A DNA stretch of 61,531 bases from Acidimicrobiia bacterium (GTDB lineage: Bacteria > Actinomycetota > Acidimicrobiia > Acidimicrobiales > Acidimicrobilacustridaceae), in contig JAFIEP010000031.1 in assembly GCA_020832495.1 (NCBI GenBank), forward strand, positions 1 to 61,531, in the 5' to 3' direction. A model generated the notes under the pieces. The model worked only from the letters and a program-made list of their open reading frames with translations. It made no database searches and was not told the DNA's origin. Both the position numbers and the translations under genes were made by a program. Of the stretch, positions 7,507 through 34,507 are shown piece after piece (position 1 is the first letter of the stretch; each line of letters opens with the position of its first letter).

Positions 7507-9582
7507 GTGCCGCCACCATCCGACGCCGACGCCGACGTCGCCACCGAGCCGGCCCCGCCCGCGACCAGCGAAGCCCCCCTCCGGTGCGGCGAAGCGCTCG
7601 ATCTCGGTGGGCTGTGGCGGGTGGCGCCGGCGGACGACACCTTGCGGCGCGGGTACACCGACCACCATCACGACGACGAGGCGTGGGAGGACCTCACCGT
7701 CCCCGGTCACTGGAGCGACCTGCCCTCACTGTCGGAGCATCACGGATCGGTGCTGCACCGCCGGCACTTCGACTGGCAGGCGGTCGAGGCCGAGCCCCCG
7801 GGCACTCGTGTCTGGTTGGTGTTCGACGGTGTGTTCGCCACCAGCGACGTGTGGCTCGACGGCACCTACCTCGGCGATACCGAGGGCTACTTCGTCCCTC
7901 ACTCGTTCGAGGTCACCGATCTCCTCGCCACGTCGGCGGACAGCGTTGGCCACCATCTGCTGGCCCTCGAGGCGGCCTGCCCCGAGGTGGCCGATCCCCG
8001 GACGAAGCAGGTTCTGACCGGCGTGTACCAACACGGCCCGTTCCCCCTCGGTGACCGCAGTCCGGGAGGCATCTGGCGGCCGGTGCGCATCGAGCGCTCG
8101 GGGCCGGTGCGCATCGAGCGCCTGCGCGCCCTCTGCACCGCCGCTGACTCGTCGGCCGCCACCGTGTCACTGCGCGCCATCCTCGACGTGGCCGACCGCG
8201 TGGTCCCGCCGGCAACGGTGCGTCTGCGCACCGCCATCGGCGACCACGTCGACGACCGGGAGATCCCCGTCGCCGCCGGGGAGAACCGCATCGAGTGGCA
8301 GGTGACCGTGACCGACCCCCGTCTGTGGTGGCCACGGGCACTCGGCGAGCCGATACTGCACCCGCTCGAGGTGACGGTGCACACCCCCGACGGGGAGGTC
8401 AGTGATCGACGCCGACGTCGGATGGGGATGCGATCCATCCGCTGGCACGGCGGGCAGGTCTCGGTCAACGGCGAGCGGCTCTTCGTGAAGGGCCTCGAGA
8501 CGGGTCCGGCCGCCTCGCCACCGGCGCGAGCCACCGGTGATCTGTTGCACCGCCAGGTGGAGGCGGCGTGCGATGCCGGACTCGACCTGGTCCGCGTGCG
8601 CGGCCACGTCGCCGCCCCGGCCTTCTACGACGCAGCCGACGCCGCCGGCCTCTTGGTGTGGCAGGACCTGCCGCTGCACGGCGGCTACGCCCGCAGCATC
8701 GGCCCGCACGCCCGCCGAGCCGCACGAGAACTCGTCGACCTCCTCGGCCACCACCCGAGCATCGCCGTGTGGTGCGGCCACGACGAGCCAGTGCCGACGG
8801 CCTCCGCCGTGGGCGGCACCGCTGGGTCCCCCGCAGCAGCGTCGACGCCGCCCCGGCTGCGACAGGTGGTCGCGGCACAGCTCCGGCCGTCGTGGAGCAC
8901 CATGATGCTGGGCCGGTCCGTGGCGCGCACCCTGCGCCGCAGCGACCCCTCACGCCCTGTCGTGCCCGCATCGGGCGTGGTGCCGGGGACGTGGGCTCCC
9001 GCCGGCGCCACCCACCTGCGGTTCGGCAACGCCGAGGGCACCACCGTCGATCTCACAGCCCTGCTCCGGGCTTGGCCGCGCCTGGCCCGCTTGGTCGGCT
9101 GGGCCGACGTCGACGACGTCACCACGCTGCGCCGCCTGAAGTGGCGTCCGTGCAACGGGTTCGTGGCCACGCAGGCCACCGACGCCGCCGCAGTCAGGAG
9201 CGATGCGACGGCCGACCAGACGCCACCCGAGACGGCGCTGCGATCTGCCTGCGCGCCGGTGGTGGTCACCGTCGACCCGCTCCCTTCGTCAGTCGTCGCT
9301 GGCGAGGTGGTGAGGCTGGCGGTGCACGTGGTGAACGATCTCCGCAGCGAGCTGACCGATGCCGACGTCGAGCTGGTGGCCGAGCTGGCCGGCCACGCGG
9401 TGGCGCACCGCCGTTGGCGGGGTTCGGTGCCCGCTGACGACGTGGCCTACGTGACCACCGCAGAGCTCACCGTTCCCGACGGGGAGGGACCGCTGGTGGT
9501 CACCGTGCGGATGTCCCACCCCCGGGCCGCCACGCACGCGACCACCACAGCGCGCTGCACCGGTGCGCGCACCACCGGCTGA
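7507..9582 (+). CDS. glycoside hydrolase family 2-fold protein, apparently without catalytic nucleophile
   Basis: A 691-residue protein with GH2 layout: N-terminal jelly-roll sugar-binding domain (about 25-200, GGLWR and WLDGTYLG), immunoglobulin-like domain (200-310) and TIM barrel (315-545), then a short beta domain. Beta-mannosidase-type GH2 enzymes carry an Asn-Glu acid/base; here the matching segment is VWCGHDEP (E427 preceded by Asp, not Asn). The nucleophile normally lies in a (S/T)EFG motif; the corresponding stretch reads RLARLVGWADVD, with Trp at about 532 where Glu is expected. It may be a non-hydrolytic relative. GTG start with GGAGAG upstream. No signal peptide is seen. Confidence 0.75.
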   Translation: MPPPSDADADVATEPAPPATSEAPLRCGEALDLGGLWRVAPADDTLRRGYTDHHHDDEAWEDLTVPGHWSDLPSLSEHHGSVLHRRHFDWQAVEAEPPGTRVWLVFDGVFATSDVWLDGTYLGDTEGYFVPHSFEVTDLLATSADSVGHHLLALEAACPEVADPRTKQVLTGVYQHGPFPLGDRSPGGIWRPVRIERSGPVRIERLRALCTAADSSAATVSLRAILDVADRVVPPATVRLRTAIGDHVDDREIPVAAGENRIEWQVTVTDPRLWWPRALGEPILHPLEVTVHTPDGEVSDRRRRRMGMRSIRWHGGQVSVNGERLFVKGLETGPAASPPARATGDLLHRQVEAACDAGLDLVRVRGHVAAPAFYDAADAAGLLVWQDLPLHGGYARSIGPHARRAARELVDLLGHHPSIAVWCGHDEPVPTASAVGGTAGSPAAASTPPRLRQVVAAQLRPSWSTMMLGRSVARTLRRSDPSRPVVPASGVVPGTWAPAGATHLRFGNAEGTTVDLTALLRAWPRLARLVGWADVDDVTTLRRLKWRPCNGFVATQATDAAAVRSDATADQTPPETALRSACAPVVVTVDPLPSSVVAGEVVRLAVHVVNDLRSELTDADVELVAELAGHAVAHRRWRGSVPADDVAYVTTAELTVPDGEGPLVVTVRMSHPRAATHATTTARCTGARTTG

Positions 9583-9584
9583 GC

Positions 9585-9608
9585 CGCCACCCGAGGACCC
9601 CGGTGGCG
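9585..9608 (+). terminator. stem-loop after the GH2 gene
   Basis: CGCCACC and GGTGGCG form a perfect 7-bp stem with a 10-base loop three bases after the stop codon. No U-run follows, so termination is plausible but unproven. Confidence 0.35.
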
Positions 9609-9636
9609 ACTGCGCCACATCTCCGCACATCGCTCG

Positions 9637-9664
9637 TTGTGATGGACGGTCGACTTGGTATCGT
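9637..9664 (+). promoter_or_regulatory. candidate promoter of the sdh operon
   Basis: TTGTGA at 9637-9642 and TATCGT at 9659-9664 with 16 bases between. This would give an mRNA leader of about 140 bases before sdhC. Confidence 0.4.
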
Positions 9665-9729
9665 CCAAAGCGACATCTGGTGACGACCACCCCGAACCAT
9701 CCGATGGCTCGTCACCTGCAGTTGGGCCT

Positions 9730-9746
9730 CCCCTCGGCCAGAGGGG
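9730..9746 (+). promoter_or_regulatory. hairpin in the sdhC leader
   Basis: CCCCTC, loop GGCCA, GAGGGG: a perfect 6-bp stem about 60 bases before the sdhC start. Function unknown; it might modulate leader structure. Confidence 0.3.
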
Positions 9747-9808
9747 TACGGTCTGTGACCTATGTCGACGGCGCGCACCGGTGGTGCGACCGAACGGAGG
9801 CAGCCAGG

Positions 9809-10588
9809 TTGACCACCACCCAGCACCCACCCGGATCCCAGGGAGCCTCAGGCGCTCCCTCCCCGGTGAACCGACGAGCGAAGCGGACGACGTTCCCCCT
9901 CGTCGACCTCTACCAGACCGCGGTCGGTAAGAAGTGGGTGATGGCCGTCACCGGCATCGCCCTCATGGGGTTCGTGTTCGCCCACATGTTCGGCAACCTG
10001 AAGCTCTACCAGGGTCCAGAGGACCTCGATAAGTACGCTGCCGGCCTCAAGACACTCGGTGATCCGATCCTTCCGAACAGCATGGTGGTGTGGCTGCTGC
10101 GAGTGGGCCTGCTCGTGGTCTTCGCCCTGCACATCCACTCGGCCTACTCGCTCACCATGATGAACCGCCGCAGCAACGGGGCCGGTGGCGGGACTCGCCG
10201 GGACACCATCGCGGCGAATTTCGCCGCCCGCACCATGCGCTGGACCGGGATCATCGTGGCCGCCTTCTTGGTGTGGCACCTGGCCGACTTCACCTGGGGC
10301 TGGTCGTTCGTGAACCCCGACTACCAGTACGGCGCCGTGTACGACAACGTGGTGGCGAGTTTCTCCCGACCGGCGGTGGCCATTGCCTACGTGGTGGCCA
10401 ACCTGGCCCTCGGCGTACACCTGTACCACGGCTCGTGGAGCATCTTCCAGAGTCTTGGTTCGATGAGTCCCCGCTTCAACCCTCGCCGCAACCCCCTGCG
10501 TCGAGGCTTCGCCCTGGCCTTCACCGCTGCGGTGGTGCTGCCGAACATCTCGTTCCCGATCGCCGTGCAACTCGGCATCATCGGGTGA
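9809..10588 (+). CDS. sdhC: succinate dehydrogenase cytochrome b subunit
   Basis: A 259-residue membrane subunit with five predicted helices (starting at about residues 45, 95, 145, 195 and 235). It belongs to the single-subunit cytochrome b type of succinate:quinone reductase (Bacillus/Wolinella-like), which anchors SdhA and SdhB and passes electrons to quinone. Histidines in helices (HMFGN, HIHSAY, WHLAD, HLYHG) are suitable haem ligands. The TTG at 9809 is preferred because GGAGG lies 8 bases upstream; a GTG at 9866 (VNRRAKR) is an alternative. It is followed after 10 bases by sdhA. Confidence 0.9.
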
Positions 10589-10598
10589 GGAGCCGACC

Positions 10599-12524
<1,926 letters not shown>

Positions 12525-20669: not shown

Positions 20670-22625
20670 CTAGCGGTCCCGCGTGCTCCCGAGCCAGCTG
20701 CGGTAGAGCTCCGCATACCGCCCGTCGGCCGCCACCAGCTCGTGGTGCGCCCCGCGTTCCACGATGCGACCGCCGTCGAACACCAGGATCAGCTCGGCCC
20801 GCTCCGCGGTGGACAAGCGGTGCGCCACCGACAGGGTGGTCCGCCCCTCGGCCAGGCGGACCAAGGCCGAGGTCAAGGCCTGTTCCGTCTCCGGATCGAC
20901 TGCGCTGGTGGCCTCGTCGAGGATGAGCAGCCCCGGGTCGGCGAGCTGTGCCCGAGCCAGGGCCACCAGCTGACGTTCACCCACCGACAGCTGTTCACCC
21001 CGTTCCCCGGCGGGCGTGTCGAGTCCGGCGGGGAGCCGGTCCACCCACCACTGCAGATCCAGTGCGTCGAAGGCCGCCAGCACGTCGGAGTCGGAGGCGC
21101 CCGGCCGACCCAGCCGGACGTTCTCGCCCACGGTCAGGTCGAACAGGAAGCCGTCCTGGGGCACCATGCGGATCCGTGCACGACGCGAGTCGGCGGCCAC
21201 GTCACCGAGTGGCGCGCCGCCGATGCGCAGCTCGCCGGTGGTGGGATCGGCCAGCCGCACCAGCAGCTTGGCGAACGTGGTCTTGCCCGATCCGGTCTCA
21301 CCCACCACCGCCACGGACGTCCCCGACGCAATGTGCAGGCCGATGTCCACCAGCACCGGCGGCCCGCCCCGGTAGGCGAAGCCGACGCCCACGGCCTCCA
21401 CGCTGAGAGCGCCTCTGGCGAGTTCGACACCGGGCTCGGGGTCCACCACCTCTGGCGGCGTATCGAGCACGTCGAGCACCTTGCGCCAGCCGGCCACCGC
21501 AGTCTGCGTCTGGTCCAGTACCTCGTTGAGTTCTGTGATGGGACCGATGATGAGGGTGACGAGGAAGATGGACGCCACCACCGAGCCGGCGTCGAGTCCC
21601 CACGACGCGCCCCAGGTGACCCCGGCGAAGACCACGGCACCCACCACCAGACCGCCGAAGAGGTCGCTCATGGAGAAGATGCCGGTGACGAAGCGCAGGG
21701 CCCGGGTCTCGGCCCGATACTGCCGGTCGATGGCCGCTCCCAGGCGGCCCTCGGTGCGCTGGGCCAGTCCGTAGGCCCGCACGACCGGGGCCCCCATGAC
21801 CGCCTCGGAGACCGCGGTGAGCGTCTCGCCCACCTGGGTCCGCACCCGGTCGTAGGCCGCCAACTGGCGTCGCTGGAGGTAGCGCAGCGCCGGCAGCATG
21901 GGCACCAGCACCGCCACCACGACCACGGTCAGTTGCCAGGCGTAGAGCGCCAACACGCCGAGTACCACCACGATCACCACCGGGTTGACGATCCACGCCA
22001 CCGCCCCCCACTGGGCGAACCGGGCAATGGTCTCGATGTCGCTCGTCACCCGGGAGGTGAGCACGCCCCGTCGCGTCTCGTCGAGATCCGCGATCGAGAG
22101 GCGGTGGATGTGAGCGAAGGTCCGTTCCCGCAGGTCGGCCAGCGTCGACTCGGCAATGGCGACCAGGCGGACGTAGGTGGCACGCGAGGCAACCATCACG
22201 CCCAACACCACCACGGCGGCGATGCCCACGGCGCTCCACACGAAGCCCGGACGGAACCCGTCCGGACCCAGCAGGCCGCGGTCGAGCACCTGTTGGATCA
22301 GCACCGGCACCGCCACCTTGCCGCCGGCACTGAGCAGGGCCAGGCCGACGGTGGTGCGGATGCCGCGCACGAGCTGCGGGCTGGCGCCCAACGCCCGGCG
22401 CAGCACCGAGATCGCACCACCCGGCTCATCGGGCGTCTCCCCCAGCACCTCGGCGAGAGGGTCGGCATCGCCGGTGTCGTGCGGTTGGCCGGTTCCGCTC
22501 TGTCCAGCGGGTCCGGCGGGCCCGGGATCGATGGTGGCCACGTCGTCGTCACGACGCCCGGGCCGGCTCACCGCCGCCATGTCGCCGTGGGAGAGATCGT
22601 CGGGGGTCGGGTCGGTCGGGGTCAC
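20670..22625 (-). CDS. ABC exporter half-transporter with catalytic Walker B and altered signature motif
   Basis: A 651-residue fused membrane/ATPase protein: six helices (about 75-355) then the nucleotide-binding domain. Walker A is GETGSGKTT, Walker B LLILDEATSAVDP with the catalytic Glu, but the signature is LSVGERQ instead of LSGGQ. An N-terminal extension of about 60 residues (Asp/Gly/Pro-rich) is cytosolic. It overlaps the preceding ABC gene by 4 bases (GTGA), so the two are translationally coupled and most likely form a heterodimer. Substrate unknown; such exporters move drugs, lipids or peptides. Confidence 0.9.
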   Translation of the reverse strand: MTPTDPTPDDLSHGDMAAVSRPGRRDDDVATIDPGPAGPAGQSGTGQPHDTGDADPLAEVLGETPDEPGGAISVLRRALGASPQLVRGIRTTVGLALLSAGGKVAVPVLIQQVLDRGLLGPDGFRPGFVWSAVGIAAVVVLGVMVASRATYVRLVAIAESTLADLRERTFAHIHRLSIADLDETRRGVLTSRVTSDIETIARFAQWGAVAWIVNPVVIVVVLGVLALYAWQLTVVVVAVLVPMLPALRYLQRRQLAAYDRVRTQVGETLTAVSEAVMGAPVVRAYGLAQRTEGRLGAAIDRQYRAETRALRFVTGIFSMSDLFGGLVVGAVVFAGVTWGASWGLDAGSVVASIFLVTLIIGPITELNEVLDQTQTAVAGWRKVLDVLDTPPEVVDPEPGVELARGALSVEAVGVGFAYRGGPPVLVDIGLHIASGTSVAVVGETGSGKTTFAKLLVRLADPTTGELRIGGAPLGDVAADSRRARIRMVPQDGFLFDLTVGENVRLGRPGASDSDVLAAFDALDLQWWVDRLPAGLDTPAGERGEQLSVGERQLVALARAQLADPGLLILDEATSAVDPETEQALTSALVRLAEGRTTLSVAHRLSTAERAELILVFDGGRIVERGAHHELVAADGRYAELYRSWLGSTRDR

Positions 22626-24388
22626 GGCCTCGCCTCCCCCGATGGCAGGCCGTCGCGTTCGTAGGCGGCCACGATGCGCTCGTAGGCGGGCAGTGCCAGC
22701 AACTCTTCGTGCCGGCCCGAGGCGGCGATGCGCCCGCCGTCGAGGAACAGCACCCGATCGGCCAGGCGGATGGTGGACAGCCGGTGGGCCACCACCAGCG
22801 TGGTGGCGGCCAGTTCACGGCGCAGATCAGCCAGGATGGCCGCCTCCACCACCGGGTCGACCGCGCTGGTGGCGTCGTCGAGCAGCAGCAGACGGGGTTG
22901 GCGCACGAGGGCGCGGGCCAGGGCCACCCGCTGGCGCTGCCCGCCCGACAGGGTGAGCCCGCGCTCGCCGACCAGGGCGTCGTAGCCGTCGGTCACCGCC
23001 TCGATGAACCCTGCGGCGTGCGCGGTGCGCGCTGCCGCCTGCACTGCCTGGAGGTCCACGGTGTCGTTGAGGTCGATGTTGGTGCGCAGCGGGTCGGCGA
23101 ACAGGAACGTTTCCTGGAACACCAAGGCCACCGCCTCGCGCAATGCGGCCGGGTCGAGGTCGGCCACATCGACCCCGGCGATCGAGACCGTGCCCCGGTC
23201 GGGATCGAGCAGGCGCACCACCAACTCACACAGGGTGGTCTTGCCCGCCCCGGTGGCACCCACCAACGCCACGATCTCCCCTGGCGCCACCTCGAAGGTG
23301 GCGCCCGCGAGCACTGCGGTGCCGTCGGGCCAGGAGAAGGCGACGTCATCGAAGCGCAGGCCCACCGGACCGTCGGGCAGCCCGACCCCGACGCCTTCAG
23401 GGGGCCCTGGGGGTACGGCGAACACCCGGTCGAGGCGCTCGGTGGCCACCACCGACCGGGGCAGCTCCTGGAGGAAGAAGCCCACGATGCGCACCGGGAA
23501 GGCCAGGAGCCCGAACAGCGCCATGGCCTGCACCAGTTGGCCGATCTCGATTGCGCCCGAGTCGATACGCCACGCACCCACCAACGCCAGGACGATGATG
23601 CCCAGGTTCGGGAGCGCGTCGATGGCCGGCTCGAAGGTTCCCCGGATCCGCCCGACGCGCACCCGGGCCTCGCGCAACGAGTCGGCGGCGGTGGCCATGC
23701 GATCACGCTCGTGGTCAGCCAGGCCCAGGGTCTTCACCACCAGCGCACCGTCGAAGCTCTCGTGGGCGATGCGACTGACCCGGCCGATGCGCTCCTGCAC
23801 CTCGGCGACGGGGCCGTGCACCCGGTCGGTGTAGATGCGGTTGAGCACGGCCAACGCCGGGAACAACACCAGCGCCACCGCCGTGAGGACCGGGTCCACA
23901 GCGAGCAGGCTGGCCAGCGAGAAGCCGATGAGCAGCACCACCCCGATGCTGAACGGCACGGGGTCGAGCACTTCGGTGGAGGCCTGCACGTCGGCATCGG
24001 CGTGGGCCAGCAACTGACCGGCGGGGGTGTCACGGTGGTACTCGAGCGGGGCGTGGACCAGCGTGTGGCCCACCTGGCGACGCAGCCGGGCCCGCACCCG
24101 GAACGAGGTCACCCCCGCCGAGTAGCGACGCAACAAGATCGACGAGGCCCGCAGCACCCCCAGCCCGACCAACAGCAACGCCCCACCGAGGGCGGCGCGG
24201 GCTGTGGCCGGCTCGGTGGTGAAGGCCGGCAGGATCAACTCGTCGGTGACCCGGCCGATTGCCCAGGCGGTGGCCACCACGCCGGCGGCATGGATGGAAG
24301 CGCCGATCAGTGCCAGGGTGAAGGTCACCGGCTCGTCACGGACGTGACGCCAGACCGTCCGCAGCCCCCGGGTGAACACGGCCTCCAT
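22622..24388 (-). CDS. ABC exporter half-transporter with degenerate catalytic site
   Basis: A 588-residue half-transporter: six helices (about 20-300) and a nucleotide-binding domain with Walker A GATGAGKTT, signature LSGGQRQR and H-loop VAHRLST. Walker B ends LLLLDDATSAVDP, with Asp in place of the catalytic Glu. With the partner's LSVGE this gives one degenerate and one canonical ATP site, as known for TM287/288 and BmrCD. The ATG at 24388 is the first in-frame start before the transmembrane domain; AAGGGGG lies 14 bases upstream, rather far. It is divergent from the malyl-CoA lyase gene. Confidence 0.88.
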   Translation of the reverse strand: MEAVFTRGLRTVWRHVRDEPVTFTLALIGASIHAAGVVATAWAIGRVTDELILPAFTTEPATARAALGGALLLVGLGVLRASSILLRRYSAGVTSFRVRARLRRQVGHTLVHAPLEYHRDTPAGQLLAHADADVQASTEVLDPVPFSIGVVLLIGFSLASLLAVDPVLTAVALVLFPALAVLNRIYTDRVHGPVAEVQERIGRVSRIAHESFDGALVVKTLGLADHERDRMATAADSLREARVRVGRIRGTFEPAIDALPNLGIIVLALVGAWRIDSGAIEIGQLVQAMALFGLLAFPVRIVGFFLQELPRSVVATERLDRVFAVPPGPPEGVGVGLPDGPVGLRFDDVAFSWPDGTAVLAGATFEVAPGEIVALVGATGAGKTTLCELVVRLLDPDRGTVSIAGVDVADLDPAALREAVALVFQETFLFADPLRTNIDLNDTVDLQAVQAAARTAHAAGFIEAVTDGYDALVGERGLTLSGGQRQRVALARALVRQPRLLLLDDATSAVDPVVEAAILADLRRELAATTLVVAHRLSTIRLADRVLFLDGGRIAASGRHEELLALPAYERIVAAYERDGLPSGEARP

Positions 24389-24473
24389 AGGTTCGTCATG
24401 GTCCCCCTTCGGCCCCAGGGCGGGCGAATCGATTCTCCTGATCTCACGGTCGACGTGACCTGCGTGCCCACGT

Positions 24474-24498
24474 TGGGAGTCGAGTCGCTCGGCTCCCA
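24474..24498. promoter_or_regulatory. strong dyad over the malyl-CoA lyase promoter
   Basis: TGGGAGTCGAG, spacer TCG, CTCGGCTCCCA: 11-base arms with one mismatch. It covers the expected -35 zone upstream of the TAGCCT box at 24509. As the transcript looks leaderless, this is more likely a DNA operator than an RNA hairpin. Confidence 0.45.
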
Positions 24499-24508
24499 GG
24501 CCGATCGG

Positions 24509-24514
24509 TAGCCT
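24509..24514 (+). promoter_or_regulatory. leaderless -10 box TAGCCT
   Basis: TAGCCT ends seven bases before the ATG at 24522 of the malyl-CoA lyase gene; no Shine-Dalgarno sequence is present. Confidence 0.45.
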
Positions 24515-24521
24515 GCGAGCC

Positions 24522-25571
24522 ATGCGCAGCCCCAAGGACTTCTTCCAGCCTCTGGCCCTCGGCGCCCCGGACCCGGTCCGTGAGATCCCGTTCCGGCCGT
24601 CGCGGATGATCCACTTCTTCGACCCGTCGAACCCGAAGATGGTGGCCAAGGTGCCCGACATGGCCACCAAGGCCGACGTGCTGCTCGGCAACCTCGAGGA
24701 CGCCATCAAGGCCGACAACAAAGAAGCCGCCCGAGCCGGGCTGGTGGAGGTGGGCCGCAACGTCGACCTGGGCGACGCCCAGCTGTGGACCCGCATCAAC
24801 AGCCTCGACTCGCCATGGTGCCTCGACGACCTCATCACCCTGGTCACCGAGATCGGTGATCGCCTCGACGTCATCATGGTCCCCAAGGTGGAAGGCGCCG
24901 AGGACATCCACTACGTGGATCGCCTGGTGGCCCAACTCGAGGCCCGCGCCGGCCTGCAGCGACCCATCCTGTTGCACGCCATCTTGGAGACCGCTCGTGG
25001 CGTGGCCAACGTGGAGGAGATCTGCCTGGCCAGCCCCCGCATGCAGGGACTGTCGCTGGGGCCGGCCGACCTGGCGGCCTCTCGCCGCATGAAGACCACC
25101 CGCGTGGGTGGCGGTCACCCCGACTACCTGGTGCGCGCCGACCCCGTCGACGGCGACATCGAGGGCGCCCGGGCCACGGCCCAGCAGGACCTGTGGCACT
25201 ACACGCTGGCCCGCATGGTCGATGCCTGCGGGACCGCGGGGATCCTCCCCTACTACGGCCCCTTCGGCGACATCGCCGACGTGGTGGCCTGCGAGGACCA
25301 GTTCCGCAACGCCTACCTGCTGGGTTGCGTCGGCACCTGGACCCTCCACCCCAAGCAGATCGAGATCGCCAAGCGGGTGTTCTCCCCCGAACCCTCGGAG
25401 GTCCTGTGGGCCAAGCGGGTCATCGACGAGATGGGCGACGGCACCGGCGCGGTCATGATCGACGGCAAGATGCAGGACGACGCCACGGTCAAACAGTGCC
25501 GCGTGGTGGTCGAACTGGCCACCCAGTTGGCGGCCAACGATGCCGAACTGGCCGAGGCCTACGGCCTCTGA
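24522..25571 (+). CDS. mcl: malyl-CoA / beta-methylmalyl-CoA lyase (Chloroflexus MCL type)
   Basis: A 349-residue HpcH/CitE-superfamily lyase. From memory it matches Chloroflexus malyl-CoA lyase along its length: [60 protein letters not shown] and the C-terminal [11 protein letters not shown]. The enzyme reversibly condenses acetyl-CoA (or propionyl-CoA) with glyoxylate; Glu/Asp in ETA and LED bind Mg. It is followed 178 bases later by a second CoA-ester lyase. Transcription looks leaderless with a dyad in the promoter. Direction in vivo (glyoxylate assimilation or release) is inferred from context only. Confidence 0.85.
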
Positions 25572-26780: not shown

Positions 26781-27482
26781 ATGGACAACGACGTTCCGGA
26801 CGGGACGACAAGGCGGCAACTCCTCGGCAGAGGAGCAGCGCTGGCGGGCGCTGCATGGGTGGCACCCCAGATCGTCTCTGCCCCAGCGGCCGCCGCGCAG
26901 ACCTGTGTGCCGGGTGTGTTGAGCTGGGACGACTTCGCCGTCGGCTCCACGTTCACGAATGCCACCGTGAACGGCGTCAACGTGTCGATGACCACCGTCC
27001 CGTTGCCCGGCACGACGGTGCTGCCCGTGAACAACACCATCCGAGTTCCACCGAACGGCAGCTTCAACTCACAGGCTCTGCAGTGGCAGCAGGTCCCCAA
27101 CGCCTCGGGGGTCGGCCAGGACATCACCTTCACCTTCGATGTCCCGGTGTCGAACCTGAGCTTCACCTTGGCCGATCTCGATGACGTCAGCGGCGCCTGG
27201 AGCGACGACGTCATCATGCTCACCCCCGGTTACACGTTCTCCATCCCCACCGTCTTCGTGCCGGCCACTCCGGCGGGCAACGTCGTTGGCCTCGGCACGT
27301 TTACCAGTCCGTTCTTCAACAGCAACCCGAACTTCAACTTCCTGAACACCTCGAACCGCGGCAACGTCACCATCAACTACGCCGGGCCCATCTCGACGTT
27401 CTCCTTCCGCTACCGCAACGGCCCGCTTTTCGGCGGCGGCAATCAGCTCATCTACATGCTCGACATGTCGTGGGACTGCTGA
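26781..27482 (+). CDS. Tat-exported secreted protein of unknown function
   Basis: A 233-residue protein with a twin-arginine leader: TRRQLLGRGAALAGAAWVA, then an Ala-rich c-region ending near APAAAAQ (cleavage about residue 40). The mature part is about 190 residues, rich in Asn, Thr, Phe and Val, with beta-strand periodicity (TFTFDVPVSNLSFTLADLDD) like a carbohydrate-binding or PEP-type beta sandwich. Two Cys remain (start of the mature part and the last residue) and might bridge. GGGAG precedes the ATG. The upstream 134 bases include an AT-richer patch around 26736-26752, probably the promoter. Confidence 0.65.
   Translation: MDNDVPDGTTRRQLLGRGAALAGAAWVAPQIVSAPAAAAQTCVPGVLSWDDFAVGSTFTNATVNGVNVSMTTVPLPGTTVLPVNNTIRVPPNGSFNSQALQWQQVPNASGVGQDITFTFDVPVSNLSFTLADLDDVSGAWSDDVIMLTPGYTFSIPTVFVPATPAGNVVGLGTFTSPFFNSNPNFNFLNTSNRGNVTINYAGPISTFSFRYRNGPLFGGGNQLIYMLDMSWDC

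Positions 27483-27948: not shown

Positions 27949-27960
<12 letters not shown>
27523..27960 (+). CDS. DUF4259-like protein
   Basis: A 145-residue soluble protein. [14 protein letters not shown], the central [10 protein letters not shown] helix and the C-terminal [11 protein letters not shown]...[13 protein letters not shown] follow the DUF4259 pattern (small acidic proteins, often SEL...W...DL.RL). Function of the family is unknown. CGGAGG lies 6 bases before the ATG. The gene's last 12 bases overlap the end of the convergent aldehyde dehydrogenase gene. Confidence 0.55.
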
Positions 27961-29388
<1,428 letters not shown>

Positions 29389-29479: not shown

Positions 29480-30865
29480 TCAGCGTTCGATGCCGATGAG
29501 GCCTTCGACCAGCTCGAGGGCGCCGTGCAGTCCGTCGGTGCCCACCTCGTAGACCGGCACGGTGGTGCACAGCGCGGATAACAGCTCCAGACCGTCCTGC
29601 CCGCGTGCGGGCAGGTTGAAGACCTGCCCGGCCAGCCGCAGGGCGGCGGGCACCGGGTCCAACGGCTCCAGGCCCTCCGCCGGGCGCGATCGGTCGGGCA
29701 GCACCACCCCCACCACCGGCGCGGGCTCCACCCCGACGCCACCACCGAGGTGCGCCGGGTCGAGATGGCCGCCCACCAGCACCACACCCTCCGGCCACGG
29801 TCCGACGACCGCCGCCTGCAGGTCCATCGACGCCTGCGCCAACGACAGCGGCTTGGGGTAGGGCACCACCTCGATGCCGGGCGCCTCGGAGGCGTCGGGC
29901 CCGCCCAGCGCACCGGCCCGCCGACGGACCCGCGCCGCCTCGTCGGTGAGATAGCGCGCCCCGCGACGACCCAGCGCCGCCGTGAGCGTCGATTTGCCGG
30001 CGTCCGGATCACCGACGATCAGAACTGCACCCGCGGGCCCGGCCACCACCCCGGCATGCACCACCATGTCGGTGTCGCTCGCCTCGATGGCTGCCGCGTT
30101 CGACCGGACCAGCAGGCTGCGGATCGCCTGGTCGTCGACGGCGGTGCGCCCCGAGGTGACCCCGTTGCGCGTCAGCATCCAATGGGCCGCCGCCACCACC
30201 GTGTGCTCGGCGGCAGGGTCGTCGGGCGGGCGCTCGGGCGGCGGTTCCCGCCGGAGCGTCCACACCTCGGCGGTGCCGGTGTCGGGGCCGGCCGCCAGGG
30301 CAGCGAGTGGCGTCAGCATCGACTCGAGCACCTCGTCGAGAGGGGGGTCGACCACGAGTAGCTGTTCGAGGCCGAGCCACCGCAGGCGCCGCCCGCCGGG
30401 CGGCACGATGGCGGGCGCCTGCTCACCCCGACCGTGGTCGGCCCGGCCCCCGACGGCCCCGGCCTCGTTGTCGCTCTCGGCCTCGCCGTCGTCATCGCCC
30501 TCCGCCGCCACCCCTCCCGACTCGGCCACCTCCGTAGCCGACGGCGCGCCCACGACCAACCCTGCGCGGCGAAACCCCTCGATGGTGGCGCACACATCAT
30601 CCGCCACCATCTCTGGCGCCACCGCGAACGAAGCCGCCACGGCGTCGATGACCTCGCTCACACCCCGGGGTGACCCCTCTACGGTCGCCACTTGCCACAC
30701 CGCCGCCGCCGTCGGGTTCAACACGTGCAACTGACGCTCGGCCGGGTCGTGAACCAAGAGGTGGTCCCCCAGCGGAGCCACGTGGACATCGATACCGGGA
30801 CCAACCCACCATCGCCGGTCCATCGGCATCAGCGGCTCGCCGTTCCCGGGCGGGTGCTCAGCCAC
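29480..30865 (-). CDS. PqqD-domain / HPr-kinase-like fusion protein
   Basis: A 461-residue protein with an unusual layout. Residues 25-105 are PqqD-like ([22 protein letters not shown], then a C-terminal helix with FRRAGLV), the peptide-binding chaperone fold of RiPP maturation. An acidic linker (107-150) follows. Residues 160-461 resemble the HPr kinase-like group: H270 in VVHAGVVAG, Walker [10 protein letters not shown] at 285-293, YLTDE at 305-309 and VPYPKPLSL at 334-342. Such kinases phosphorylate lasso peptides and other RiPPs. No precursor or B-type protein is seen nearby. It overlaps metF by 8 bases, so translation is probably coupled. Confidence 0.7.
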
Positions 30866-31715
30866 CCAGCCCGAGGTTCTCGTAGATCTGGCGCGTGGCC
30901 GGCGACCGGTTCAGCGTGTAGAAGTGCAGGCCAGGCGCCCCGGCGGCCAGCAGCTCCGCGCACAGCTCTGTGGCCAGCTCGATGCCGAGCGCACGCACGG
31001 CGTCGGGATCATCGGCCAGCGCCTCGAAGCGCTCGGCCAGGTGGGGAGGGAATTCGGCGCCGGACATGGCCGCCATCCGTCCCACCGACTTGAGATTGGT
31101 CACCGGCATGATGCCGGGCACCACCGGCTTCGCCACCCCCAGCGCGGCCAGTTCGTCCACCATCCGGAGGTAGTGGTGCGCTTCGAAGAAGAACTGGGTG
31201 ATGGCGAAATCCGCGACGAGAAGCTTGGCGGCGAGCATCCGGCGATCGCTGGTTCGATCGGGCGAACGCGGGTGGAGTTCGGGATGAGCGGCCACCCCGA
31301 TGGAGAAGTCACCGACCTCCTGCACGAGCGCCACCAACTCCGAGGCATACGCCAGGTCGCTGGGGGCATCCTCCATACCGTCGGGCACGTCGCCACCGAG
31401 CGCCAGGATGTTCTCGATGCCGGCCTCGCGGTACTCCTCGAGCAACGAGACCAGCTGTTCCCTGCTGTGCGCCACGCAGGTGAGGTGCGCCATGGCGGTG
31501 ATGCCGGTGTCGCGTTCGATGTGGATGACCACGTCCCTCGTGCGCTCCCGGGTGGACCCGCCGGCCCCGTAGGTCACCGACACGAACGACGGGTCGAGCG
31601 GCTGCAGCTCCCCCACGGTCTTCTCGAGCGCCCGGGCGGCCTCGTCGGTCTTCGGAGGGAAGAACTCGAACGACCACGTCGGTCCGGCCGCCAGGAGCTC
31701 GCTGATCTTGGCCAT
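30858..31715 (-). CDS. metF: methylenetetrahydrofolate reductase
   Basis: A 285-residue TIM-barrel flavoprotein reducing 5,10-methylene-THF to 5-methyl-THF for methionine synthesis. The N-terminal SFEFFPPKT holds the catalytic Glu; VSVTYGAGGS, MAHLTC and ALGGD are family segments; the FAD-binding and C-terminal FYTLNRSPAT close the barrel. The ATG lies six bases after a TAGTAT box with no ribosome site, so it is leaderless. Its end overlaps the PqqD-HprK fusion gene by 8 bases. folD lies upstream in the same direction. Confidence 0.93.
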   Translation of the reverse strand: MAKISELLAAGPTWSFEFFPPKTDEAARALEKTVGELQPLDPSFVSVTYGAGGSTRERTRDVVIHIERDTGITAMAHLTCVAHSREQLVSLLEEYREAGIENILALGGDVPDGMEDAPSDLAYASELVALVQEVGDFSIGVAAHPELHPRSPDRTSDRRMLAAKLLVADFAITQFFFEAHHYLRMVDELAALGVAKPVVPGIMPVTNLKSVGRMAAMSGAEFPPHLAERFEALADDPDAVRALGIELATELCAELLAAGAPGLHFYTLNRSPATRQIYENLGLGG

Positions 31716-32719: not shown

Positions 32720-32884
32720 GGCGTGACAATGACCCAGGGCGACACCACCCAGACGCCGCTTCGCTATTTGTCCGGCTGTCGATTTCTCCGGGTGTGTTCA
32801 AGAAACCCGTGCGCCGCGCCGAGGTTTTCTATGGCCCGTCTGCCAGACTTGCCACTGTTCAGCGGGATCGAGCGGAGTTCCCAG

Positions 32885-34507
32885 ATGGCCATGACCACTC
32901 CAGATGTTCCGGCCAAACAGCGGCGCCGGCTTGTCACCACGCTGCTGGCTGCCGTCGCGCTGCTGGCCGTCGGCGTCGGGGTGCCGTCCGGGCCCATCGC
33001 TGGCGCCGACGAACCCGGCATCAGCGGTCCGATCGACGACGGGGACTGGCTGGCGTGGGTGAACCTCTACCGGGCGCAGACCGGCCTGGCACCCGTCGTC
33101 GAGGATCCAGCGCTGAGTGCGGGCGCCGGGCTGCATGCCCAGTGGATGCTGGCCAACCAGTTCGCGTCGCACCCGCAGTGCAAGGAGGCGGCGCCCACCC
33201 CGACCACGTGCACACCGGTCGACAACCCCTTCACCGGGCTTCCGACGCTGGGGTCGACCTACGAAGGTCACCGCGCCGGCACCGAGAGCAACATCCAGTT
33301 GTGGGGCCCGACCATCCCTGCGCCGCGCACCGTGCTCGAGCGGTGGATGGCCGGACCGTTCCACGCCGTGGGTGTCATCGATCCCAGACTGCAGACCACG
33401 GGGTACGGACAGTCGATCAACCTCTCCCTCCCCCTCACGCACGCAGCCGGCCTCAACATCCTGACCGGACGCGCTGGCGCCCCACCGCCAGCAACGGTTT
33501 TCCCGCTCGTGTGGCCCGGCGACGGCTCGGCCTCGGCGGTGCGTGTGATGCCCACCGAGTACCCGAACCCCATGACGCACTGCGGGTGGGACTTCCCCGC
33601 CGGGGCCCCGGTCATCGTGCAGTACGAGACACCCACCCCCTTGGCCTCGGCCACCATCTGGCAGGTCAACGGCGACGGCAGCGAGGAAGAAATCGAAGCC
33701 TGCGGTTTCGACGGCACCGAGGGTGCCAATGGCTACTCGAGCCCCGACAGCGACGAGCAGTCGTTGGGACGCCTGGTGCTACGGGTACGCAACGCAGTCG
33801 TGCTCCAGCCACGCCACCCGCTCGAGGTGGGTGCCACCTTCCGCTACGAGATCAAGGGTGTGGGCGAGCCGCTGATCGAGGGCACCTTCTCGGTGGTCGA
33901 CCCTGAGAACGTCTACGGCCCTCCGCATCCCACGACCACCACGACCACCACCTCCACCACACAGCCCGCCGGTGGAGGTCCGTTCACCGACGTCGGCGCC
34001 AACCACCCGTTCGTGGACGCCATCACGTGGATGGTGGACGAGGAGATCGCCTCGGGGTTCGCCGACGACACGTTCCGCCCCACCAACCCTGTCAGCCGCC
34101 AAGCCATGGCGTCGTTCCTGTGGAAGCTCCAGGGCTCGCCCCAGGCCTCCTGCAACGGTTCGTTCACCGACGTGCCCCCCACCCATCCCTTCTTCGACGC
34201 CATCTGTTGGATGGTGGCCGCAGACCTGGCGGGTGGCTATGCCGACGGCAGTTTCCGTCCCACGAACCCCGTCAGCCGCCAGGCCGTCGCTGCGTTCCTC
34301 CACCGACTCGCAGGGGAACCGGCACCATCCGCTGGTACCGACGCTTTCAGCGATGTCCCGCCCGGCCACCCGTTCCGCACGGCCATTGGCTGGTTGGTGC
34401 AAGAAGGCATCGCCAAAGGGTTCAACGACGACACGTTCCGTCCCACCAACCCTGTCAGCCGCCAAGCCGCTGCGTCGTTCCTCTACGGCACGACCGGCAC
34501 GGCCTGA
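32885..34507 (+). CDS. secreted CAP-domain protein with three SLH repeats
   Basis: A 540-residue surface protein. An N-terminal signal peptide (RRRLVTTLLAAVALLAVG, cleavage near IAGA-DEP) precedes a CAP/SCP-like domain (about 50-185: WLAWVNLYRAQTGLAPV, ALSAGAGLHAQWM). A beta-rich middle region follows (190-340), then a Thr-rich linker (345-357) and three S-layer homology repeats (about 360-540), each with PFxxAIxWxVxxxIAxGFxDxTFRPTNPVSRQ. SLH domains bind wall polymers, so this is probably wall-attached. Repeats 1 and 3 are nearly identical at DNA level. ATG 32885 has GGAG upstream. Confidence 0.85.
   Translation: MAMTTPDVPAKQRRRLVTTLLAAVALLAVGVGVPSGPIAGADEPGISGPIDDGDWLAWVNLYRAQTGLAPVVEDPALSAGAGLHAQWMLANQFASHPQCKEAAPTPTTCTPVDNPFTGLPTLGSTYEGHRAGTESNIQLWGPTIPAPRTVLERWMAGPFHAVGVIDPRLQTTGYGQSINLSLPLTHAAGLNILTGRAGAPPPATVFPLVWPGDGSASAVRVMPTEYPNPMTHCGWDFPAGAPVIVQYETPTPLASATIWQVNGDGSEEEIEACGFDGTEGANGYSSPDSDEQSLGRLVLRVRNAVVLQPRHPLEVGATFRYEIKGVGEPLIEGTFSVVDPENVYGPPHPTTTTTTTSTTQPAGGGPFTDVGANHPFVDAITWMVDEEIASGFADDTFRPTNPVSRQAMASFLWKLQGSPQASCNGSFTDVPPTHPFFDAICWMVAADLAGGYADGSFRPTNPVSRQAVAAFLHRLAGEPAPSAGTDAFSDVPPGHPFRTAIGWLVQEGIAKGFNDDTFRPTNPVSRQAAASFLYGTTGTA
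34064..34468 (+). repeat. near-identical 42-base blocks in SLH repeats 1 and 3
   Basis: Bases 34064-34105 and 34427-34468 are the same at 41 of 42 positions (encoding DDTFRPTNPVSRQA). The middle SLH copy (about 34246-34287) is more diverged. This points to recent duplication or gene conversion. Confidence 0.75.

Follow-up and report, generated by a model that had tools for sequence, protein, structure and literature searches.

A PqqD-HprK fusion protein in an Acidimicrobiia genome and its candidate partners, Tat-signal proteins with a lasso-type docking motif

RRE-guided modification is known mainly for the short precursors of natural products. The nearest described systems to the one reported here are LPP, the paeninodin-type lasso peptides and Sec-signal RiPPs such as the bufferins. 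The LPP system of Bacillota, as described in the available text of PMC13381572, comprises a SpI peptidase, a discrete RRE, an HprK-like kinase, an NTP transferase and an MsbA-like transporter; its precursors are 35-200 aa long and its clusters lie within capsule loci. According to the same text, [Y/W]xxPx[L/V/I/A/F/Y] is the motif by which lasso leaders dock on PqqD-type RREs, with similar motifs in PQQ and LPP leaders, exchange of Tyr and Trp is known in lasso and LPP leaders, and N33 and D70 of the RRE protein LppB contact the Pro and Tyr of the leader. In bufferins and other MNIO-modified RiPPs with Sec signals, the export signal doubles as leader and may be masked by a partner that contains an RRE; the available text of PMC12452194 calls Sec leaders in RiPPs 'highly unusual'. 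A 2025 RRE survey (PMC12710340, available text) describes JmjC-RRE fusions and DUF2063 RREs with Sec-signal precursors, and found no specific leader motif for the DUF2063-type RREs; its main text, as available, does not mention 'kinase'. Neither 'tat' nor 'signal peptide' occurs in the available main text of PMC13381572, neither 'tat' nor 'twin-arginine' in that of PMC12452194, and the available parts of RRE-Finder (PMC7470986) and PMC5067487 describe no Tat-leader kinase system. A search for Tat signals as RRE leaders gave no such paper among its best-ranked full-text matches, most subscription literature lying outside it.

The window analysed here is a stretch of 61,531 nucleotides on contig C84 of a draft Acidimicrobiia genome (4.46 Mb, 147 contigs). 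Its minus strand carries, at 29480-30865, a 461-codon open frame with a GTG start, recognised from its codon score, its Pfam and NCBIfam domains and an AlphaFold2 (AF2) model as the gene of a PqqD-HprK fusion protein of 461 aa. The same strand holds metF (30858-31715), which shares 8 bases with the fusion gene, and an aldehyde dehydrogenase gene (27949-29388), 91 bases downstream of it. A folD-like gene lies upstream of metF; these three names were given by eye. The initial annotation had placed both domains in one protein, overlapped with metF and followed by the dehydrogenase, and both statements were confirmed, the first by Pfam, NCBIfam and the predicted structure. The common strand and overlap with metF, together with the folD-like gene, would be explained by a housekeeping tie to one-carbon metabolism, but the genes beside fusions and kinases at other loci are different ones, metF not having been noticed among them in the cluster listing; we judge the metF link incidental and such a tie extremely improbable. 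The window also contains an ABC exporter gene (22622-24667) and a gene at 32831-34507 whose product looks secreted and carries three FTDV..HPF..AI.W-type repeats in its C-terminal part, S-layer-homology-like by eye.

The locus has an RRE, an HprK-like kinase and a [Y/W]xxPx[V/L] leader in common with LPP, as well as an NTP transferase at some related loci and, as we propose, removal of the leader by a signal-type peptidase. It differs from LPP in that RRE and kinase form one protein, the leaders are Tat signals, the hosts are Actinomycetota and the passengers are mostly larger; no SpI gene was noticed beside the fusion. The lasso B1 proteins and the HprK-like kinase of paeninodin-type clusters share with it the PqqD fold (5v1v, 5v1u, 6jx3) and the leader motif, but inspection by eye of the genes beside the fusion showed no lasso cyclase, no B2 protease and no precursor of the short or lasso type. 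Compared with the bufferins, it has Tat instead of Sec signals and an HprK kinase instead of an MNIO oxidase. We file the fusion system as new within RRE-guided modification and outside the lasso, LPP and HPr-rel-A families.

The PqqD/RRE domain occupies residues 20-105 (30551-30808, minus strand). Pfam PF05402 matched residues 41-104 (E 1.3e-7; 32.2 bits, above the cut-off of 23.4). In the AF2 model, VIA-align superposed residues 18-109 on the TbiB1-leader complex 5v1v (Z 12.9, rmsd 1.8, 88 residues) and residues 19-106 on TfuB1 6jx3 (Z 11.8). The modelled elements, E28-32, E35-40, E45-49, H51-64, H69-79 and H84-100, are three strands followed by three helices, forming a winged helix. PqqD was absent among the 50 Foldseek matches listed for the fusion model, and the VIA listing does include it. 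In our reading of a profile alignment to LppB (9x8z), N50 and D90 of the fusion align with N33 and D70, L49 and L103 align with the second pocket, and the cleft-dividing F74 is replaced by T94. The domain is predicted to bind the motif found in the Tat signals described below.

The HprK-like kinase domain spans residues 264-456 (29498-30076, minus strand). HprK_rel_A (TIGR04352, NCBIfam) matched residues 264-455 with E 3e-15 and 56.1 bits, far below its equivalog cut-off of 200. Pfam Hpr_kinase_C likewise fell below its cut-off (15.8 against 33.3 bits), there was no N-terminal HprK family among the Pfam matches at E<=1, and the full fusion sequence found a single weak HprK match among PDB sequences (E 0.82). 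In the AF2 model, residues 265-459 matched the HprK/P of L. casei, 1kkl (VIA-align; Z 12.4, rmsd 2.6, 131 residues), and the two have the fold and the P-loop in common at about 20% identity in the structural alignment. The P-loop GDPDAGKS (residues 285-292; 29990-30013, minus strand) lies in conserved columns of two alignments of relatives (A1, A4). All 11 fusion proteins compared, the window's included, share H270, G290, S292, T293 and L294, and K291, D308 and E309 are kept in at least 90% of them. From their catalytic roles in HprK, we take the P-loop with H270 and D308-E309 to be the putative active site. The model was built from 26 sequences and has a mean pLDDT of 73.6; ten-residue means are mostly above 80 in both domains and below 50 at 118-175 and 196-242. 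The initial annotation had named a lack of structural similarity to PqqD, or absence of the ATP site in homologues, as findings that would speak against it. The PqqD fold is clear, the HprK assignment was recovered both by profile, at a sub-threshold score, and by structure, and the P-loop residues G290, K291 and S292 are invariant or at least 90% conserved in the 11 fusions.

PEP carboxykinase also matched the fusion model, both in Foldseek and in VIA (Z 13.7, rmsd 4.7, 244 residues), and the fold therefore does not reveal the substrate. This match, and the separate PqqD and HprK genes present at many loci, would suit a PqqD domain acting as a Tat-signal chaperone for WxxPx[LIV], with the HprK-like domain driving release by energy or phosphorylating a small molecule or a protein-bound sugar. 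The conservation of H270, the P-loop and D308 argues against such a role, as does the characterised LPP case, in which an RRE-partnered HprK-like kinase phosphorylates the precursor (PMC13381572, available text), and we regard it as quite unlikely. We prefer to see the fusion as a protein kinase guided by its own RRE.

The fusion was not unique to this genome: further genomes of the order encode full-length PqqD+HprK proteins. Of 61 family and order genomes searched, 15 had matches, counting the source genome. Kinase profile A1, made from the 11 fusion proteins, matched 144 of the 297 genomes of the order at E<=0.001 and 45 at E<=1e-20, among the matches listed. In the source genome it had three matches at E<=0.001, the fusion being among the matches listed, and the genome has one HprK_rel_A and two PqqD matches. 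The loci fall into two overlapping groups, one of polysaccharide type and one in which an HprK gene adjoins the gene of a Tat-signal protein. NTP_transf_5 genes occur at some loci of the first group (a two-seed profile matched 20 of 932 genes). At some of the Tat loci there are genes for JmjC_2 proteins (Pfam E 4e-15 to 2e-19, five tested), 2OG-Fe(II) oxygenases (1e-13 and 9e-15, two tested) and sulfotransferases (5e-7, and another at 6e-4, under the cut-off), as expected of a protein-modification cluster. Two loci, L101 and L140, show a run of Tat protein, JmjC_2, 2OG-Fe oxygenase, two families that gave no Pfam match (members of 175 and 385 aa tested) and HprK, which looks like a multi-step protein-modification cluster. 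A Clostridium record (L083) packs four HprK-like frames and two PqqD-like ones into about 5.5 kb.

HPr-rel-A proteins belong to an exopolysaccharide setting, and the best NCBIfam matches of both fusion domains are to that group, TIGR04352 for the kinase and TIGR04353 (PqqD_rel_X; residues 33-104, E 1.7e-4) for PqqD. The fusion might thus serve in polysaccharide assembly, its link to Tat proteins being indirect. BY-kinase/Wzz-like gene clusters, named by eye, are present in 18 of the 61 loci, and the second PqqD gene of the source genome, on contig C5, adjoins Wzz/BY-kinase-like and NTP_transf_5 genes. However, both scores are below the curated equivalog cut-offs (22.5 bits against 35 for TIGR04353), the two domains are fused here, and no polysaccharide gene was recognised by eye next to the fusion. 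Genes of that kind would also leave the RRE motif in Tat signals unexplained, and motif-bearing Tat leaders are enriched beside HprK genes (p 4e-10, below). We consider this explanation unlikely as an alternative; the polysaccharide and Tat roles may coexist, since LPP clusters are also found in capsule loci (PMC13381572, available text). The C5 locus (L042, 14000-33900; PqqD call of 91 aa) might supply a set of partners to the kinase of the window.

The window encodes a candidate substrate of the fusion, a Tat-signal protein of 233 aa (26781-27482, plus strand) identified from a leader profile, its relatives and a structural model. It starts MDNDVPDGTTRRQLLGRGAALAGAAWVAPQIVSAPAAAAQTC, and it has a twin arginine, a hydrophobic stretch and an AxA-type end, the features of a Tat substrate: TTRRQLLGRGAALAGAAWVAPQIVSAPAAAAQ. 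The twin arginine (residues 11-12, in TRRQLL; 26811-26816, plus strand) is invariant in alignments A2 and A3. WVAPQI, at residues 26-31 (26856-26873, plus strand), fits the docking motif, and its W26, P29 and I31 are invariant in A2, a wholly circular profile that was used for homology only. The complete signal is encoded when translation starts at the ATG at 26781; the gene caller had started at a GTG at 26859. The protein did not match NCBIfam TIGR01409 at E<=0.1 and failed the strict hydrophobicity filter of the Tat-like gene count used below. It is the best match of the leader profile in the source genome (E 1.4e-12); the 22 rows from which the profile was built include its own leader. Its relatives directly adjoin HprK genes in three other genomes, at loci L121 (40% identity), L029 (27%) and L103 (26%).

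The Tat gene and the fusion gene are 2.0 kb apart on opposite strands, separated by a DUF4259 gene and the dehydrogenase gene, so that they do not share an operon. Pfam and NCBIfam assigned its product to no family. The mature part was modelled with modest confidence as a beta-sandwich (pLDDT 63.4, from two sequences); Foldseek returned nothing for the model at E<=0.001. The VIA listing began with jelly-roll-like domains, among them carbohydrate-binding modules and adhesins (Z 9.4 and below), which we take to mean no more than a predicted beta-sandwich. The protein ends in WDC. A Cys occurred within the last four residues of 27 of 53 motif-bearing Tat calls, a set that contains a small number of false calls and a control gene; among the 1660 other calls, 51 had one. 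This Cys perhaps closes the sandwich by a disulfide or serves as an attachment point.

The source genome has a TatC gene and encodes eight or more Tat proteins with the motif, the nearest to the fusion being the one in the window. The other seven are on contigs C101 (two), C116 (two), C17, C122 and C75, and no PqqD or HprK gene was found beside them in the stretches read. Given an estimated gene number of about 4,300, the chance that one of eight Tat genes falls within three genes of the sole strong kinase is about 1 in 100. At another locus of this genome (L175), two Tat relatives of the window protein (9122-9823 and 10642-11505) flank a small gene.

These findings bear on the initial annotation, which saw no precursor, protease or cyclase genes and suggested an orphan kinase with its substrate elsewhere. 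Its statement on the missing short precursor, B2 protease and cyclase stands by eye, and no short precursors were evident near the fusion. The view that there is no precursor nearby is probably wrong, a precursor-like candidate with an RRE-type leader motif, though not of lasso type, lying 2 kb away. A substrate encoded elsewhere fits the candidates on other contigs and not the position of the best-scoring one, only 2 kb from the fusion. In place of the short precursors with a conserved C-terminal Ser/Thr that it had in mind, the candidates are Tat proteins. Of the 53 calls, which contain a small number of false matches and whose start codons we assigned ourselves, 44 have 150-290 residues (median 207). 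An orphan peptide kinase acting on a short RiPP precursor encoded elsewhere would agree with the short substrates of PqqD and HprK-like enzymes in lasso and LPP systems (PMC13381572, available text). The motif-bearing partners that co-occur with the kinase are Tat proteins, however, and the genome shows no sign of a lasso cyclase cluster, which makes such a kinase very unlikely. Matches to Asn_synthase (PF00733, E<=0.001) were on C60, C3, C108, C142 and C14, with none on C84; one was full (C60, a 604-codon frame) and four were partial, all on contigs other than those with PqqD.

The Tat signals encoded beside the kinases follow a rough consensus, RR..L.(K/R).A..G...W.AP.I. A search expression requiring RR, W, one or two residues and P had 27 matches in 932 genes. 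The 25 in loci with an HprK gene entered a local table, including three judged false (L024, L033 and L041, none adjacent to HprK). Removal of these three from the 27 left 24 leaders, and all 24 have W-x-x-P-x-[ILV]. Tyr replaces Trp in two leaders of L109 that the expression had missed (YIAPQL and YVAPQI) and in one of L197 (YAAPTI). A wider W/Y/F expression gave the 53 matches mentioned above, which are an upper count because they include L157_6, a control gene whose product is apparently a membrane protein, along with a few other likely false matches. After RR, the spacing W/Y-x2-P was seen 38 times in the loci read and each other spacing 2-5 times. The motif was carried by 18 of 23 Tat-like genes adjoining PqqD or HprK genes against 2 of 21 farther or control ones (p 4e-6); those two or three genes away, a class outside this comparison, had it in 5 of 16 cases. 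The motif occurred within the called first 60 residues of three window genes, one being the fusion gene, and of 15 of the 386 control genes, so the motif alone is weak evidence. The Tat gene is not among these three since its called N terminus was cut to the GTG at 26859. The WVGPGI near the N terminus of the fusion (residues 20-25; 30791-30808, minus strand) fits the motif and, given its frequency in control genes, may be chance; alternatively it may be a self-docking element.

Motif-bearing Tat genes are linked to kinase genes, and the two co-occur across genomes. Leaders with a Tat signal and W(x)1-2P were found in 15 of 126 genes adjoining HprK and in none of 386 control genes from 20 regions (Fisher, 4e-10), and the same 15 of 126 compare with 4 of 443 genes four or more positions away (1e-7). 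Several loci are kin or overlap (L126-L128 are close kin, as are L025 and L118, and L102 and L103 overlap); without L118, the twin of L025 from the same genus, the count was 13 of 121 (p 5e-9). Among the 66 HprK-domain genes, two of which, in L025 and L118, are weak matches of 514 and 625 aa, 15 had an adjacent Tat match and 23 had one within three genes; 51 had none adjacent and 43 none within three genes.

At the level of genomes, a leader profile of 22 rows (A3, with L125 and L140_0 left out) was present in 44 of the 297 genomes of the order. Among the matches listed, it occurred in 36 of the 45 genomes with an A1 match at E<=1e-20 and in 8 of the 252 others (p 4e-30), so that nine strong-kinase genomes had no leader and eight leader genomes no strong kinase match. 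Because A3 was built mostly from HprK-adjacent leaders and is to that extent circular, the comparison was repeated without the 18 sampled genomes that had supplied leaders, and was extended beyond the order. The reduced test, in which G005 and G048, sources of A1, were retained, gave 18 of 27 against 8 of 252 (p 6e-16, among the matches listed). Stratified by family, in a table of 86 genomes from 13 families consisting of the genomes with a kinase match plus G234, G067 and G010, the common odds ratio was 32 (p 9e-8).

Outside the order (354 genomes, an assumed figure), where the profiles contained no sequence from the genomes searched and four partial leaders were set aside, we found 25 full-length leaders, of which 13 were within 2.5 kb of a listed PqqD or HprK match and 12 were not. 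Leaders were present in 8 of 15 strong-kinase genomes, and nine genomes had a leader but no strong kinase match. Eighteen of these loci were read, and 10 of them show 12 Tat neighbours. The neighbours that fit carry WAAPLI, WSAPAI, WAAPAV, WATPAV, WTTPAV, WAAPSV, WAAPSI, WGAPAV, WAAPGI and YAAPTI; as exceptions, L186 (VATPLV) lacks the aromatic residue and L194 (FAAPLI) has Phe. At the other eight loci none of our gene calls was a Tat neighbour, seven of these loci being kinase-chosen or unresolved by the caller. The caller had been trained on high-GC loci; it called no PqqD or HprK in L195 and missed HprK genes in L191, where the genome search places them. In a further set of 58 named loci, mostly from Pseudomonadota and confirmed out of at least 596 stretches matched, a Tat neighbour was credible by eye in five, namely the re-found L059 and L063, L069 from Frankiaceae, L070 from Acidimicrobiaceae and L076 from a Chloroflexi MAG.

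We suggest, as a reading that is somewhat favoured over its negation, that the fusion is a self-contained RRE-guided kinase whose PqqD domain grips the Tat signal while its kinase domain phosphorylates the passenger before export. The PqqD domain would grip the aromatic-x-x-Pro-x-aliphatic motif, WVAPQI in the window protein, within the hydrophobic part of the signal. The low-confidence regions 118-175 and 196-242 would form a flexible linker, giving the HprK-like domain access to the passenger, which it would phosphorylate in the cytoplasm. As long as it occupies the signal, the PqqD domain may also keep it away from Tat. The folded product would then be exported by Tat and the leader removed by signal peptidase. 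Tat carries folded proteins and therefore suits such a mechanism. In the source genome, a single kinase would act in trans on eight or more Tat proteins with the motif. The undescribed RiPP-like system raised in the initial annotation is supported in its logic of RRE domain, kinase and leader motif; the part that does not hold is the short precursor, the candidates being Tat proteins.

More broadly, and tentatively, since we put it at somewhat less than an even chance, Tat signals with a lasso-type docking motif may be a general code in Actinomycetota by which RRE-bearing enzymes modify folded proteins before Tat export, one kinase acting in trans. The enzymes would be PqqD-HprK and, at some loci, JmjC, 2OG-Fe and sulfotransferase proteins, and there is a similar record from Chloroflexota. 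If true, this would extend the logic of RiPPs from short precursors to whole folded proteins, with the Tat signal as leader. It would also suggest a reason for the use of Tat, as modification and folding would happen inside the cell, and orphan PqqD and HprK genes would gain a testable set of substrates through a single motif search.
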